A DNA stretch of 64,000 nucleotides. It comes from Lachnospiraceae bacterium. GTDB lineage: Bacteria > Bacillota > Clostridia > Lachnospirales > Lachnospiraceae. Each line of letters starts with the position of its first letter. Position 1 is the first letter of the stretch. Shown piece after piece: positions 52,910 through 62,748 of this stretch. The notes beneath the pieces were generated by a model, which did no database searches, was not told the DNA's origin, and saw only the letters and a program-made list of their open reading frames with translations. The translations under genes and the position numbers were made by a program. Location of the stretch: NCBI GenBank assembly GCA_015057085.1, contig SVFB01000036.1:1-64000 (forward strand), read 5' to 3'.

Positions 52910-53590
52910 ATGAACTACACAATTGAAGGGGAACCATTACCGGTCGTAATCTGCAACTTGGATGCAAATGAGACAATGATCACCGAAAAGGGCGCTATGT
53001 CCTGGATGACTCCAAATATGCAAATGGAGACAACTTCTAACGGTGGTATTGGTAAAATGTTCGGACGCGCTTTCACGGGGGAGGCAATGTTCCAGAATCG
53101 TTATACCGCTATGGGCGGACCTGGACAGATTGCATTCGCTTCCAGCTTCCCGGGATGTGTACGTGCTTTTGAAATCGGACCTGGACAGGAGCTTATCGCT
53201 CAGAAATCAGCATTCCTTGCTTCAACCGCAGGAGTAGAACTTTCATTACACTTCCGCAAGAAGCTGGGTGCAGGCTTGTTCGGTGGAGAAGGCTTTATTA
53301 TGCAAAGACTTTCAGGACAGGGTCTTGCATTCCTTGAGTTTGACGGATATATCAAGGAATATGATCTTGGACCGGGCCAGCAGATGGTAATCGATACCGG
53401 ATATCTCGCTGCTATGACAGCAACCTGCCAGATGGATATTCAGACCGTACCTGGTGTAAAGAATGCATTATTTGGCGGCGAAGGATTATTTAATACTGTC
53501 GTAACCGGACCGGGACATATCTGGTTACAGAGTATGCCTGTTTCACAGCTCGCCGGCGCAATTCAGCCGTTTATTGTAACAGGTAAATAA
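52910..53590 (+). CDS. AIM24-family protein
   Basis: 226 residues, beta-rich with repeated GPGQ-type turns (IGPGQELIAQ, LGPGQQMVID, TGPGHIWLQ) and GGEGF/GGEGLF segments, as in the AIM24/TIGR00266 family. The fold resembles tryptophan-RNA attenuation-like barrels; the bacterial role is unknown. AAGGAG precedes the ATG at a normal distance. Confidence 0.88.
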   Translation: MNYTIEGEPLPVVICNLDANETMITEKGAMSWMTPNMQMETTSNGGIGKMFGRAFTGEAMFQNRYTAMGGPGQIAFASSFPGCVRAFEIGPGQELIAQKSAFLASTAGVELSLHFRKKLGAGLFGGEGFIMQRLSGQGLAFLEFDGYIKEYDLGPGQQMVIDTGYLAAMTATCQMDIQTVPGVKNALFGGEGLFNTVVTGPGHIWLQSMPVSQLAGAIQPFIVTGK

Positions 53591-55053: not shown

Positions 55054-55536
55054 ATGATCTCGATTGATTTTTGGAATATTGGATTTACAGTAATCAATCT
55101 GCTGATTTTATTCGTCGCATTTAGAATCTTTTTCTTTAAGCCAATCCGTAAAATCATTGAACAGCGTCAGGCAGAAGTGGATGCTATGTACAATGAAGTT
55201 ACCGATAAGCAAAACGAGGCAAATTCGCTGAAGTTAGAGTATGAAGAGAAAGTCATGATTGCGGAGACCGAGAAGAAGCAAATTCTTTCAGAGGCACGCA
55301 AGAGCGCAGATGGAGAATATCAGCATATTGTGACAGATGCGAAGCATGAAGCGAACAGAATTCACAGAGATGCTGTCGCAGCAGCAGAACATGAGAAAGA
55401 AGAAATCATTGGTTCTGCAAGAAAAGAAATTGCACAGATGGTTGTGGAAGCAACCACTAAGGTGGTCGGCAGCAAAGCGGCCGCTGAAATTGACAGTGAA
55501 TTGTATGACAAATTTTTAGGCAAAGCAGGTGAATAA
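55054..55536 (+). CDS. atpF: ATP synthase subunit b (F0)
   Basis: 160 residues. One N-terminal membrane helix (about 8-28) followed by a long charged helix for the stator stalk. Normal length. The next gene starts 2 bases after its stop. Confidence 0.93.
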   Translation: MISIDFWNIGFTVINLLILFVAFRIFFFKPIRKIIEQRQAEVDAMYNEVTDKQNEANSLKLEYEEKVMIAETEKKQILSEARKSADGEYQHIVTDAKHEANRIHRDAVAAAEHEKEEIIGSARKEIAQMVVEATTKVVGSKAAAEIDSELYDKFLGKAGE

Positions 55537-55538
55537 GC

Positions 55539-57554
55539 GTGAGAGAAAAGTCTATGGAATACGCCCGTAATCTGCGTAGTTTGGCGAATGCAAAAGAATA
55601 CTTAGAGACAGCTGCATCTATGTTAGACGCAGTGCCTGCAATCGGTGAAGAATTAAGCGATCCAACTGTTGCGCTCAGCAAGAAACTGATTGTAATCGAT
55701 CGCATCTTCCCGAAGGAAATTCGCAACTTTTTAAAACTACTTTGTGATAACGGCGATTTTGAATGCTTTGATGAAGTGCGTAAGGCTTTGGAAGAACTCT
55801 CCAAAACACCGGACGCAAAAGTTGAGCATGCAAAACTTACATATGTGACTCATCCGACAGAGGAGCAATTAAGCGGCATCCGACAGTTTGCCGCAAAAGA
55901 AACCGATAATCCTGACATTGTATTGGATTTGGAAGAGGATCCTTCTTTAAAGAGTGGTTTCGTCCTTGATATCGGTTCAAAAGAATACGACTGGAGTGAG
56001 CAAGGTCGTATTGAACAATTAAAAGAGCAGTTAAATAAGGCTGTCAATGTCACAGCCAGCGAAAAAGAAATTCTGTCCATCTTGCAAGCAAGTGTGGAAG
56101 ATTTTGAACTGGAAGCAAAAAATAATGAAGTCGGCGTCGTTAACTGGGTCGGTGACGGAATTGCAAACGTAGATGGTATTGATCATGCCTTTTATGGAGA
56201 AATCGTAGTCTTTGACTGCGGTGTAAAGGGAATGGTTCAAGATGTGCGCCGCGATGAAATCGGTGTTATCTTATTTGGACGCGATACCGAAATCAAAGAG
56301 GGAAGCCGTGTGGTTCGTACCGGTAAAATGGCTGGACTTCCAACCGGTGAAGGATTCCTTGGACGTATCGTGGATGCTTTGGGAAGCCCATTGGATGGAC
56401 TTGGCGAAATTGATGCAGATGATTTCAGACCGGTTGAAACTCCGGCTCCAAGCATTGTAGACAGAAAGTCCGTTACAGTTCCGATGGAGACCGGTATTTT
56501 GGCAATTGATTCCATGTTCCCAATTGGACGTGGACAGCGTGAATTAATTATCGGAGATCGTCAGACCGGTAAAACCAGTATTGCGACAGATACCATCATT
56601 AACCAAAAGGGAAAGGATGTTATCTGTGTCTATGTTGCCATCGGTCAGAAGGCTTCTACAATAGCAAAACTGGTGAACACATTACGTGAGAGAGATGCGA
56701 TGTCTTATACCATTGTGGTATCCGCAACAGCATCTGATCCGGCACCACTTCAGTATCTTGCTCCATATGCAGGAACTGCATTGGCAGAATATTTTATGTA
56801 TAAAGGAAAAGATGTTTTGATTATCTATGATGATTTATCAAAGCATGCTGTGGCATATCGTGCCATTTCCTTATTGCTCGAGCGCTCTCCGGGACGAGAG
56901 GCATATCCGGGTGACGTATTCTATCTTCACTCAAGATTGTTGGAGCGTTCAGCTCGATTGACTCCGGAAGCAGGAGGTGGTTCGATTACAGCCCTTCCGA
57001 TTATTGAGACACAAGCGGGAGACCTTTCTGCATATATTCCGACCAATGTTATTTCTATTACAGACGGTCAGATTTTCTTAGAGTCTGAATTGTTCTTCTC
57101 AGGTCAGAGACCGGCTGTTAATGTCGGTTTGTCCGTATCCCGTGTCGGTGGCGCGGCTCAGACCAAGGCAATGAAGAAAGCGGCAGGATCAATTCGTATC
57201 GATTTGGCGCAATACCGTGAGATGGAAGTGTTTACACAGTTCTCTTCAGACTTAGATGATGCAACCAAGCAACAGTTGGCACATGGACGCTCTTTGATGA
57301 ATCTTTTGAAGCAGCCATTGAATCATCCGCTTTCTATGGCAGAGCAAGTCATTCTTTTGGTTGTGGCAAATGCGCATCTCATTTCAAATATGGATGAGGC
57401 ACAGATTAAGAAGTTCCGCAGTGATGTACTCGAATTCTTCCAGACAGAGCATAAAGAAATCGTCAGTGGATTAGAATCTGCAAAAGATTTGTCTGAAGAA
57501 ATGAGAGACAATATCATTGATGCGGCAACGGAGTTTATAAACAGTCAGGAGTAG
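55539..57554 (+). CDS. atpH-atpA: Fused ATP synthase delta and alpha subunits
   Basis: 671 residues. Residues about 1-165 are a full delta (OSCP) subunit: MEYARNLRSLA, LCDNGDFECFDEV, LTYVTHPTEEQLSGIRQFAAK, then SLKSGFVLDIG. From about 168 on comes a full alpha subunit: EILSILQASVEDFELE, VGDGIANVDGIDHAFYGE, P-loop GDRQTGKTSIATD, LLLERSPGREAYPGDVFYLHSR and AGGGSITALPIIETQAGDLSAYIPTNVISI. The two are joined without a stop, frame change or ribosome site, and I find no in-frame ATG near the junction. GTG 55539 is preceded by AGGTGA; ATG 55554 is an alternative. Since F1 has three alpha and normally one delta, the complex may carry extra delta domains or the protein may be cut. Confidence 0.92.
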   Translation: MREKSMEYARNLRSLANAKEYLETAASMLDAVPAIGEELSDPTVALSKKLIVIDRIFPKEIRNFLKLLCDNGDFECFDEVRKALEELSKTPDAKVEHAKLTYVTHPTEEQLSGIRQFAAKETDNPDIVLDLEEDPSLKSGFVLDIGSKEYDWSEQGRIEQLKEQLNKAVNVTASEKEILSILQASVEDFELEAKNNEVGVVNWVGDGIANVDGIDHAFYGEIVVFDCGVKGMVQDVRRDEIGVILFGRDTEIKEGSRVVRTGKMAGLPTGEGFLGRIVDALGSPLDGLGEIDADDFRPVETPAPSIVDRKSVTVPMETGILAIDSMFPIGRGQRELIIGDRQTGKTSIATDTIINQKGKDVICVYVAIGQKASTIAKLVNTLRERDAMSYTIVVSATASDPAPLQYLAPYAGTALAEYFMYKGKDVLIIYDDLSKHAVAYRAISLLLERSPGREAYPGDVFYLHSRLLERSARLTPEAGGGSITALPIIETQAGDLSAYIPTNVISITDGQIFLESELFFSGQRPAVNVGLSVSRVGGAAQTKAMKKAAGSIRIDLAQYREMEVFTQFSSDLDDATKQQLAHGRSLMNLLKQPLNHPLSMAEQVILLVVANAHLISNMDEAQIKKFRSDVLEFFQTEHKEIVSGLESAKDLSEEMRDNIIDAATEFINSQE

Positions 57555-57557
57555 GCT

Positions 57558-59965
<2,408 letters not shown>

Positions 59966-59968
59966 CTT

Positions 59969-60388
59969 ATGGCATCAGCATATAATCTGAAAATTATAGC
60001 GTGCAATGGCGTGTTCTTTGATGGTGATTGTGAGTCATTGATTTTTCCGGGGACAGATGGTCAGATTGAGATCATGAATCATCATGAGACGATGACAGGT
60101 GTGATTGAAATCGGAGAAATCAAGTATAAGACACCGGATCAGGAGTGGCATAGGGCTGTCATATCTGATGGACTTTTGACAGTTTATAAGGATGGAAGCG
60201 TGAAGCTAATTGTATACTCTTGCGAGAAGCCGGAGAACATCGATACGTTCCGTGCTCAGGAAGCACTCGAGCGCGCACAAGAGCAGTTACGCCAGAAACA
60301 GAGCATTCAGGAATACCACATTTCAACCGCCAATATGGCGCGTGCCATGGCACGACTTAAAGGCGCCGGAAAAAGCCCAAATCTATAA
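59969..60388 (+). CDS. atpC: ATP synthase epsilon subunit
   Basis: 139 residues. The N-terminal beta-sandwich (LKIIACNGVFFDGDCESLIFPGTDGQIEIM) and the C-terminal two-helix domain (EALERAQEQLRQ to ARAMARLKGAG) are both present, so the inhibitory helical domain is intact. Last gene of the operon. Confidence 0.94.
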   Translation: MASAYNLKIIACNGVFFDGDCESLIFPGTDGQIEIMNHHETMTGVIEIGEIKYKTPDQEWHRAVISDGLLTVYKDGSVKLIVYSCEKPENIDTFRAQEALERAQEQLRQKQSIQEYHISTANMARAMARLKGAGKSPNL

Positions 60389-60405: not shown

Positions 60406-60442
60406 AGCCCACCGCTTAGAGTTAAGTGGTGGGCTTGTTTTT
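60406..60442 (+). terminator. Terminator of the ATP synthase operon
   Basis: AGCCCACC, G, CTTA pairs with TAAG, T, GGTGGGCT around GAGT, followed by TG and five Ts. The opposing ABC-2 gene ends at 60441, and the stem may serve both directions. Confidence 0.9.
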
Positions 60443-61616
60443 AACTAAGTTCTTTGCGCTTGTGCTGCATACTTACTACAAGGTAGATTGTGAAGAATGC
60501 AACTGCAAAGAGTAGTTGAATTCCAATTCCTTGCGCATACTTTGTAGCGGAAAAGGCTTCATCGGTGAATCCCGCCAGCATATTGTTGGAATTAATATAC
60601 CAGTAGAATGGCAGGAATCGTGAAAATGCAATTACATGATCTGAAAGCATCCAAAGCGGTACAAACACTCCGCAGATGAAGCTGCTTCCCAGACCGATGG
60701 TATTTGCAATCAGATTTAAACCATGCTCTTCAACATCAAAGGATCCAATCAGTAAGGTTAAGGATACGACGACTACAAGCAGTGCCAAACCGTTTAGCAT
60801 CATCATAAATCCGGTTGCGGTAAATAGTTTGCCCGGTCCATAGGAAATCAGGCTGGCAACCATGAATACAAGCCAGAGAAGTAAGGAGTAGCAAATTGCA
60901 CCAAGCCCGATTCCGAATCCGCGCTTGCGGGAGGAAAGAGAACTGCAGTTGATGCGCTCGGCCAGATCCTTTTTGTGGAAGACCATCAGGATTGGAGCCA
61001 TTGCAAGAAGCATAACGGTCACTAAAATATAAGAGTAGTATTGGAAGTAGTATCCAATCTTTGAAAATCCATTGGTTATTTGCTCGAAGGAAATGACAGA
61101 TACTTCTGAAGAAAATGCCTCTTCTGCGGTACTTGCTGTTTTTGTCAGTGCCTCATCTAAGGAAAAACCACCGCGTAAATAGAGCGTCAGTGTTGAAAAG
61201 TATGCATTCACGTCTTCATTAAAGAAATATCCTGCAGCGGAGTCTGTTCGCATTGCATGTGATACAAGATGTTCGGTTTCTCCGGCTAACAGTTTTTCTT
61301 CGTATCCTTCCGGTATGGTGAGTACATATTGGATATTTTCGTAATAAAGGTTATCCTGTAGTAATTCCAAATTGTTTTCTTCATATTCCACATAGTTGTG
61401 CTTTTGAGATAAATAATCAATCAATGCCTGGCTGGAGGCAGTTTGATCTTCATCTAATACTGTAAAGTCAACGGTAGAAGCTTTAAATTTGTCTGTGGTT
61501 TGGCTGCTTCCCAAAGAGGACATAATCAGCATAAGTACAATGTAGACACTTACATAAATGATGCAAGAGCGAATATATTTTTTTGAAATTTTGAAGAAGG
61601 TTTTAAAGTTGAGCAT
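60441..61616 (-). CDS. ABC-2 type permease, second of a pair
   Basis: 391 residues: a helix near 17-37, a large extracellular domain with a VDFTVLDEDQTASSQALIDYL segment, then about five helices in the C-terminal half. This is the ABC-2 exporter layout seen for peptide, antibiotic or lipid exporters. AAGGAG precedes the ATG at 61616, which overlaps the preceding gene by 14 bases. Substrate unknown. Confidence 0.88.
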   Translation of the reverse strand: MLNFKTFFKISKKYIRSCIIYVSVYIVLMLIMSSLGSSQTTDKFKASTVDFTVLDEDQTASSQALIDYLSQKHNYVEYEENNLELLQDNLYYENIQYVLTIPEGYEEKLLAGETEHLVSHAMRTDSAAGYFFNEDVNAYFSTLTLYLRGGFSLDEALTKTASTAEEAFSSEVSVISFEQITNGFSKIGYYFQYYSYILVTVMLLAMAPILMVFHKKDLAERINCSSLSSRKRGFGIGLGAICYSLLLWLVFMVASLISYGPGKLFTATGFMMMLNGLALLVVVVSLTLLIGSFDVEEHGLNLIANTIGLGSSFICGVFVPLWMLSDHVIAFSRFLPFYWYINSNNMLAGFTDEAFSATKYAQGIGIQLLFAVAFFTIYLVVSMQHKRKELS

Positions 61617-62748
61617 ATTTCTTTCTCCTTGTCATAAAAAATCCAAGTAAGCAAAAGGCGATAGACAAAATAACAAGTGTAATCATGTTGCAAGCATAAC
61701 GTGTCAAAGTATGATACTGAGACAATCGATAGAAGCAGTCAGTCAATAAGGAAGCCGGATTGATACGATTCAATATCGGAACATGATTTTCAATGAGAAT
61801 CATCATATTTCCAAACATCAGACCACTTAAGAAGCAAAGCGGCATGGTGACTGCAAATACAAGTCCCTGCTTGGAACCGCGATCCATACGGCCGATACAG
61901 CCGATGCAAAATCCCAGTGTTGTTCCAACTGCACAACCTAAAAACATAGTCAGAAGTGTTAGAGGAAGGCGGCTGGTTAAATCTATTTTCAAAACGAGGG
62001 CTAAGTACGCAAAGCCTACCAGATTAAATACAAATTCATACAGAACGGATGCAATTAATTCTCCCACGATGGTTTTTAACTTATGTGTTGGAGAAATACT
62101 TCTTCTCATTGCCAGATCCGAAAGGTTGGCCTGATTATCACAGGCTACGGATACGCCGCCTACTGCTGTGAAAAGGCAGGTCATGGCAAGCAGGTTATAG
62201 AAATACTGTGTCAGAGGGTTCTGGTCAGGATTGCGGCTAAGGGACGCAGTTTCATTGTATTCAATATCATTTGTCATTTCTGAAACAGCCGTCTGCAGTT
62301 GCTCCGGATGATTTTCTGCAATATCAATCAAGACAGTTTGATACATATTATATTCATTTACAAAGGACTCTAAAATGCTTTGCATCATGCTTTGATTTGT
62401 CATATTTCCGGATACAGTCAAAGTAACTTGCTTGCCGGAAGTAATCATGCCAACAATTTCTTTGTCCTCTAAGAGTGCGGTGGCTTTTTCTTCATCACAG
62501 TAGGTGACATCTAAAAAGGGCTCTTCACCTGTTGCTAAAGAATCGCAGGTGGATTGAAGCGCGTCACCATAGGCATCATCTGATAAGATGACAGCCACAG
62601 GAATGGTTTCCATATTTTCGGAAGCGGCTGCATTTGAGAAGGCAATATGAAAGAAGGTTCCCAAAATAATCGGAAATAGTAAAATCCAAAAAGTATTGGC
62701 TTTGTCGCGGATTAACCGTTTCCAACGATAGTAAATAATGCGTAACAT
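61603..62748 (-). CDS. ABC-2 type permease, first of a pair
   Basis: 381 residues with the same layout: N-terminal helix (about 20-40), an extracellular domain with IPVAVILSDDAYGDAL, and about five helices after residue 180 with GCAVGTTLGFCIGCIGRMDRGSK and FLSGLMFGNMM. It probably forms a heterodimer with the next gene product and uses the ATPase encoded at 62769-63710. Confidence 0.88.
   Translation of the reverse strand: MLRIIYYRWKRLIRDKANTFWILLFPIILGTFFHIAFSNAAASENMETIPVAVILSDDAYGDALQSTCDSLATGEEPFLDVTYCDEEKATALLEDKEIVGMITSGKQVTLTVSGNMTNQSMMQSILESFVNEYNMYQTVLIDIAENHPEQLQTAVSEMTNDIEYNETASLSRNPDQNPLTQYFYNLLAMTCLFTAVGGVSVACDNQANLSDLAMRRSISPTHKLKTIVGELIASVLYEFVFNLVGFAYLALVLKIDLTSRLPLTLLTMFLGCAVGTTLGFCIGCIGRMDRGSKQGLVFAVTMPLCFLSGLMFGNMMILIENHVPILNRINPASLLTDCFYRLSQYHTLTRYACNMITLVILSIAFCLLGFFMTRRKKYAQL

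Follow-up and report, generated by a model that had tools for sequence, protein, structure and literature searches.

A full-length delta subunit fused in frame to the alpha subunit of a second F-type ATP synthase in Lachnospiraceae

In known F-type ATP synthases, the C-terminal domain of the delta subunit is the part that holds subunit b. A fusion of b with delta is known from mycobacteria. The system closest to the one described here is an engineered PS3 enzyme in which a delta subunit without its N-domain is fused to alpha and which has up to three stalks and a subunits, according to the accessible text of PMC12229609 (2025). The engineered fusion had an H+/ATP ratio of 5.8, against 3.0, and ATP synthesis at a low proton-motive force was shown. 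The same text cites Acidaminococcus fermentans and two UniProt entries for naturally occurring delta-alpha fusions that lack the delta N-domain (hereafter N-less, as opposed to full-length, fusions), argues that the delta N-domain, through its position on the threefold axis, restricts the enzyme to a single stalk, and ventures the guess that a multi-stalk F-ATPase may exist in nature. In addition, Pseudobutyrivibrio ruminis is stated in the accessible text of PMC11187502, citing Schoelmerich 2020, to make ATP with two ATP synthases, one using Na+ and one using H+. An earlier note on the DNA analysed here knew of no described delta-alpha fusion, which needs correction since the N-less form is in print both as an engineered and as a natural protein (PMC12229609, accessible text).

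The window, a stretch of 64,000 nucleotides from a Lachnospiraceae bacterium (GCA_015057085.1, contig SVFB01000036.1), contains, at 55539-57554 on the forward strand, one intact frame of 671 codons with a GTG start, a ribosome-site-like AGGTG 7 bases upstream of it, and a TAG stop at 57552-57554 (Table 1). Pfam places OSCP/delta at residues 7-165 (73.4 bits against a cut-off of 22.3, covering positions 11-172 of the 172 in the PF00213 profile) and the alpha domains ATP-synt_ab_N, ATP-synt_ab, and ATP-synt_ab_C at residues 197-262, 319-534, and 541-666, while the cut-off for TIGR00962 (atpA), which the alpha part exceeds, is 484. The delta N-domain is present, with PF00213 aligning from profile position 11, a custom delta model (the window being one of its seven seeds) aligning from position 4, and the chloroplast delta 22vl_d aligning over residues 7-165; the delta C-domain is joined to the alpha N-terminus. 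At the gene level, delta and alpha share one frame with no internal start rather than being separate polypeptides made at 1:3. The observation of a full-length delta fused to a full-length alpha is confirmed, and the earlier note was right that delta runs into alpha in one frame without a stop and that the ATG at 56047 belongs to another frame.

Table 1. Coordinates of the F-ATPase genes and of the parts of the delta-alpha fusion in the window
Feature	Position	Strand	Evidence or remark
atpB, subunit a, 232 aa	54050..54748	+	PF00119, 150 bits
atpE, subunit c, 73 aa	54815..55036	+	PF00137, 73 bits; without the Q of the Na+ site, reads ALAEATAIY
atpF, subunit b, 160 aa, own gene	55054..55536	+	PF00430, 68 bits
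atpH-atpA fusion, full-length delta and full-length alpha, 671 aa	55539..57554	+	ORF, Pfam, NCBIfam
Delta N-terminal domain (residues 1-88)	55539..55802	+	PF00213 match from residue 7
Delta C-terminal domain (residues 97-165)	55827..56033	+	Pfam; PS3 delta 6n2y_I aligned over 39-165
Junction, about 6 residues	56034..56051	+	Variable among relatives; no stop, start, or ribosome site
Alpha N-terminal helix (helix by analogy) TASEKEILSILQASVEDF	56052..56105	+	I-S-I-L core retained in forms that have the delta N-domain
Alpha subunit (residues 172-671)	56052..57551	+	TIGR00962, 748 bits
atpG, gamma, 333 aa	57558..58559	+	PF00231, 289 bits; long loop at about 58143-58298 (loop lengths)
atpD, beta	58556..59965	+	TIGR01039, 811 bits
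atpC, epsilon	59969..60388	+	PF02823, PF00401

All F-type subunits are encoded in one operon with the order a-c-b-(delta-alpha)-gamma-beta-epsilon (ORFs and Pfam), which puts the fusion, as had been claimed, in the normal operon place of atpH and atpA. The gamma subunit is unusually long, as was also noticed from the sequence, and its extra length is one loop (approximately residues 196-247) with 52 residues, compared to 21 to 24 in 7 housekeeping F-ATPases and 22 to 36 in 50 loci with separate delta and alpha genes; the loop measures 24 to 62 residues (median, 43) in 62 full-length fusions and 22 to 49 in 60 N-less ones. It lies near what we take to be the site of the regulatory insert of chloroplast gamma. 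An AIM24-family protein gene lies upstream of the operon (52910-53590, forward strand), and two ABC-2 permease genes lie downstream on the opposite strand (60441-62748, reverse strand).

The genome to which the window belongs (128 contigs, 96.7% complete) encodes a second, ordinary F-ATPase on contig C123 (locus L023, genome G000), with separate delta and alpha genes and an alpha subunit 55% identical to that of the window. The c subunit on C123 has the Na+-type motif GIGPGVGQG ... AETTGLY, which the c subunit of the window lacks. We take the Na+-type motif to consist of the Q plus the E-S/T-T-Y ligands and assume that the ALAEATAIY of the window is proton-like. The Na+-type motif was present in 7/7 housekeeping loci and in none of 82 full-length, 70 N-less, and 64 separate-gene loci. 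Judged by its c subunit sequence, the fused F-ATPase of the window looks like a proton-type enzyme, and Na+ coupling was rejected on the count of 0/82 in full-length loci. Two further candidates were rejected, namely, an N-ATPase (alternate F1F0), for which the alpha part scored 608.9 bits with TIGR03324, below the cut-off of 750.5, and carriage of the operon on a plasmid, for which there was no near match among 72,556 plasmid records.

How widespread the fusion is had been left by the earlier note to a search for homologues. A profile (A2) of the delta C-domain, the junction, and the alpha N-terminus, built from three rows and giving lower bounds, was searched against 397 family genomes and recovered at least 73 stop-free fused loci from many genera, the window included, of which 27 were full-length and 46 N-less; G150 and G208 were dropped from the fused count for their short open frames (270 and 192 aa). 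In a search of genome contigs, the best 80 of 200 relatives were all fused (66 full-length and 14 N-less), although these were ranked by likeness to the window, so that the full-length proportion is no census. Among these 80 were Agathobacter ruminis, Pseudobutyrivibrio ruminis, Pseudobutyrivibrio xylanivorans, Butyrivibrio fibrisolvens 16/4, Eubacterium uniforme, and a record labelled Lactobacillus rogosae. Outside the family, at least 11 fused loci were found in 398 genomes of the phylum; all 11 examined were N-less and may be the counterpart of the Acidaminococcus fermentans type. Fused loci fell into two clear classes by the custom delta model, with the window among its seven seeds, as the delta match started either at model position 1-9 (one at 23) or at 71-120; L177 and L182, which had no delta match over the threshold, were called N-less by length. 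One full-length fusion (L039 in G354, with the same alpha as Eubacterium uniforme L107) has a 758-aa frame with an alpha C-terminal extension of approximately 80 residues.

Within the same genus as the window, Agathobacter ruminis (G009) has the same full-length fusion, 84% identical overall and 66% and 70% identical in the delta N-domain and C-domain, respectively, and G042 has a fusion without the delta N-domain. The latter belongs to a second F-ATPase of another kind (L025), whose a and c subunits are quite divergent and which was possibly acquired from elsewhere. A related operon with separate genes occurs in 11 other genomes among the 62 searched. In two further genomes of the genus (G037 and G001), delta and alpha lie in one frame with a single TAG between them, which overlaps the alpha ribosome site: TAGGAGGTG. 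This TAG directly before alpha in the same frame would speak for a sequencing or assembly error that removed a stop codon from the window; however, the fusion is found in independent genomes of many genera, cultured strains included, and the alpha start codon and ribosome site are also gone in the window. We rejected a sequencing artefact on these grounds and give an error of this kind practically no credence.

A normal enzyme with three alpha subunits and one delta could also result if the chain were cut after translation or if alpha were additionally made from an internal start; both had been named in the earlier note, which also offered three delta domains per enzyme or the displacement of two of them. 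Over codons 1-215 of the window fusion, no in-frame ATG, GTG, or TTG occurs between codons 131 and 182, and there is no ribosome site at TTG 182 or GTG 186, on which basis an internal alpha start in the window was rejected. The region from -10 to +8 codons around the alpha start was scanned in all loci, with an energy of -6 or better counted as a strong ribosome site. Separate-gene loci had a start codon with such a site in 65/65 cases (median best, -10.6), compared to 7/82 full-length fusions, of which 54 had no start codon near the junction and 28 had some start; among N-less fusions, 43/71 had no start codon and 9/71 had a start at -6 or better. The fusion reading frames' own starts had an energy of -6 or better in 74/81 full-length cases. 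All seven housekeeping alpha genes have a start in the scanned range and one of them reaches -6, so the cut-off misses real starts. The seven full-length fusions with a start and ribosome site, and the in-frame ATG at the junction of Agathobacter ruminis, lend this alternative something, but the energy at that ATG is -1.1, meaning that there is no ribosome site, and the junction sequence is variable, with no shared motif seen. Separate production of alpha from an internal start is not supported, and we consider it unlikely that either process restores the normal subunit ratio. The full-length fusion is seen at the level of the gene, and proteolysis of its chain would leave no trace in the sequence.

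Second copies of delta and alpha were sought with PF00213 and TIGR00962 in 30 genomes, comprising 26 fused genomes with a single profile match and the two-copy genomes G000, G009, G451, and G354. None of the 26 contained a second delta (PF00213) or a second alpha over the TIGR00962 cut-off, although the 26 were chosen for their single match, so that this result is a confirmation and not a sample, and at completeness values of 81 to 100% a second copy may have escaped notice in some of them. The delta match of G353 was just below the Pfam cut-off. Eight of the 26 sole-copy genomes are full-length (G385, G309, G289, G297, G143, G111, G380, and G283; 83 to 100% complete). In G385, which is rated 100% complete, there were just three TIGR00962 matches, these being alpha, beta, and a weak match of 20.6 bits; the extra TIGR00962 matches of many other sole-copy genomes look, from their lengths, like V-type subunits. 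The fused protein thus seems, from the gene content, to serve as the sole delta and F-type alpha in these relatives. Because no other delta or F-type alpha was found, three deltas per F1 would be the plain expectation from the genes, provided that the chain is not cut and no second start operates, and the ratio of three alpha to one delta, which the earlier note had singled out as the puzzle that a real fusion would pose, is indeed the puzzle here.

A decaying N-domain was rejected for the full-length form. In 20 full-length pairs, the dN/dS values were 0.19 for the N-domain, 0.14 for the C-domain, and 0.08 for the alpha body; the corresponding values in 6 separate-gene pairs were 0.24, 0.25, and 0.06. 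Protein change relative to the alpha body was 4.8 for the N-domain and 3.1 for the C-domain in full-length fusions, the corresponding values for same-type relatives with separate genes being 5.8 and 5.0, and the mean column entropies of the two domains were 1.76 and 1.38 in full-length and 2.09 and 1.93 in separate-gene sequences, sets that are not matched for diversity. By these sequence measures, the delta N-domain is under purifying selection in full-length fusions. Its conserved positions include Y8, P33, F57, R62, L68, and C69, which would lie in helices I and V, the alpha-binding groove of known deltas. The alpha-body dN/dS of 0.08 also bears on the idea that the operon is merely a decaying spare copy. 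The ordinary F-ATPase operon on C123 of the same genome would allow for that, but all seven ORFs of the window operon are intact and relatives live with the fused copy alone, which makes a decaying spare very improbable.

The other side of this contact, the alpha N-terminal helix, was compared between sets thinned to similar diversity (30 of 82 full-length, 23 N-less, and 28 separate-gene sequences; mean alpha distances of 0.232, 0.257, and 0.214), the 23 N-less rows coming from a hand-picked list of up to 29 of 71 that nest among full-length ones. The helix core of I, S, I, and L is kept in the full-length and separate forms and loosened in N-less fusions. The excess at the four core columns was 1.07 bits in N-less fusions, against 0.07 ± 0.16 for a null drawn from alpha-body columns of similar conservation (0/5,000 draws), where the core columns were chosen by conservation in the full-length set and the rows are not independent; separate-gene compared with full-length sequences showed no excess at these four columns (2,877/5,000 draws). 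Over 14 helix columns, the mean entropy was 0.76 in separate, 1.43 in full-length, and 1.79 in N-less sequences, and the relative rate of the alpha N-terminus rose in the same order (2.3 to 2.9, 3.2 to 3.6, and 4.1 to 4.8). Since the full-length helix is intermediate, being looser than that of separate-gene loci, docking of the N-domain may be partly relaxed. Our reading of these patterns is that the N-domain, where present, would grip the helix core, with perhaps just some copies docked, and that the helix would be freed once the N-domain is gone.

Phylogenies of alpha suggest that the N-domain was lost more than once. A FastTree tree of 225 distinct sequences (82 full-length, 71 N-less, 65 separate, and 7 housekeeping, from 257 loci before deduplication, with four copies of the window and C123 removed first) showed the full-length and N-less forms mixed. 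In an IQ-TREE tree of 68 hand-picked rows, 60 fused rows formed one clade (97/92), and well-supported branches forced at least nine changes of the N-less label, with the bootstrap not fully settled. A single clade for 15 N-less rows was rejected by an AU test on 42 hand-picked rows (p-AU, 1.8e-50), with the groups named after the first tree was seen, and one single loss of the N-domain is rejected on that same test. Regain of a homologous domain is implausible, and we therefore read the label changes as losses. A direct example is N-less L088, in which, relative to its full-length sister L079, a clean 219-base in-frame deletion has removed the delta N-domain and left the first 24 codons. The best explanation is that the N-domain was later deleted in several lineages, giving the N-less form that is already in print. 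A tree of 53 rows, with several inner branches unresolved, requires at least three changes between fused and separate genes, represented by the Lachnospiraceae fusions, the out-of-family N-less clade, and L184 (that is, G111); it favours a separate origin for seven out-of-family fusions, with weak support at their attachment (84/47). FastTree puts a separate-gene clade inside the fusions, whereas the careful trees give no support to such nesting; from the sequences, these separate genes may stem from a later split of the fused gene.

One genome (G129) goes a step further, with b, the delta C-domain, and alpha in one 778-aa reading frame (L185:2956-5289). This frame contains the only b (PF00430), delta, and F-type alpha detected in the genome, which is 96% complete, and from its genes one would expect three b subunits per F1. 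Inside the alpha N-helix of this triple fusion lies an in-frame ATG with a ribosome-site energy of -7.7. The arrangement was found in this single genome and not again among 144 other genomes searched; we see in it the strongest hint beyond the window toward a threefold stator.

Our best explanation, which we hold to be moderately probable, is that the gene yields one chain of approximately 73 kDa that would be both the delta and the alpha of a second, proton-type F-ATPase. As F1 has three alpha subunits, each enzyme would carry three deltas, and each delta C-domain would be able to hold b2, making more than one stalk possible. One delta N-domain at a time could occupy the central place on the alpha crown, with the other two pushed aside or kept at another site. 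With additional stalks, the enzyme would use more ions per ATP and could synthesise ATP at a low proton-motive force, as for the engineered fusion (PMC12229609, accessible text). The same protein could also assemble with one ordinary stalk, in which case one delta would work canonically, placing its N-domain on the axis and binding b2 through its C-domain, and two deltas would be passengers. The N-domain and the alpha N-helix core are conserved together in full-length fusions, and according to the accessible text of PMC12229609 the N-domain restricts the stalk number to one; the window fusion keeps the N-domain, and an equally good reading of this conservation is a classical single-stalk enzyme in which two deltas are spare. 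However, carrying two unused tethered deltas on every enzyme across dozens of genera would appear costly, the b-holding C-domain is better conserved than the N-domain in full-length fusions, and N-less fusions, which fall outside the one-stalk rule, arose repeatedly. We regard the single ordinary stalk as a real possibility but a doubtful one.

Three deltas per F1 could form part of a wider picture, in which a large group of gut Lachnospiraceae runs natural multi-stalk F-ATPases, each F1 carrying three delta-alpha chains together with as many as three b dimers and a subunits, and so has a raised ion-to-ATP ratio. The full-length fusion would be ancestral among the fused forms, its three N-domains sharing or capping the alpha crown, and the N-less and b-delta-alpha forms would be later steps to a threefold stator. 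We propose this picture tentatively, as falling just short of probable. If it is true, multi-stalk F-ATPases with a raised ion-to-ATP ratio would suit life at a low proton-motive force. The window and its relatives offer many natural multi-stalk candidates in culturable gut anaerobes and an evolutionary series from separate genes through the full-length fusion to the N-less fusion. They also allow a sharp test of whether stalk number is set by the N-domain, as has been claimed, because a protein expected in three copies per enzyme here retains an N-domain that is under selection.

In the accessible open-licence literature on fusions, stalks, and butyrivibrio ATP synthases, we found no description of a full-length delta-alpha fusion. 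The accessible parts of the COGcollator paper and of a peripheral-stalk review contain nothing on a delta-alpha fusion, the word "fused" is absent from the main text of the 2015 butyrivibrio paper, and the accessible text of PMC11187502 on the ATP synthases of P. ruminis makes no mention of one. Three P. ruminis loci (L066, L067, and L103) nevertheless have the full-length fusion and a proton-like c subunit as in the window, and the fused enzyme is, on the strength of that pairing, probably the H+ ATP synthase of P. ruminis. New here are the selection on the N-domain in full-length fusions, its loss at least nine times on well-supported branches, the loosening of the helix on loss, and the b-delta-alpha triple fusion.

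The described systems each share part of the arrangement in the window. The mycobacterial b-delta fusion (PRK13428, NF009961) likewise joins a stator subunit to delta but places delta on b, whereas in the window b is a reading frame of its own, b and delta are not in one chain, and delta is on alpha. The Acidaminococcus fermentans fusion is, like that of the window, a natural in-frame delta-alpha fusion in an F-ATPase operon, but it is without the delta N-domain (PMC12229609, accessible text). The engineered fusion (PDB 9JC1), whose chain I was matched in a sequence search with the window (E value, 0.049), connects the delta C-terminus to the alpha N-terminus via a short link, as in the window, and has the three deltas per F1 that would be expected of the window enzyme from its genes; its delta N-domain (residues 2-104) was deleted on purpose (PMC12229609, accessible text), whereas the fusion in the window keeps it.
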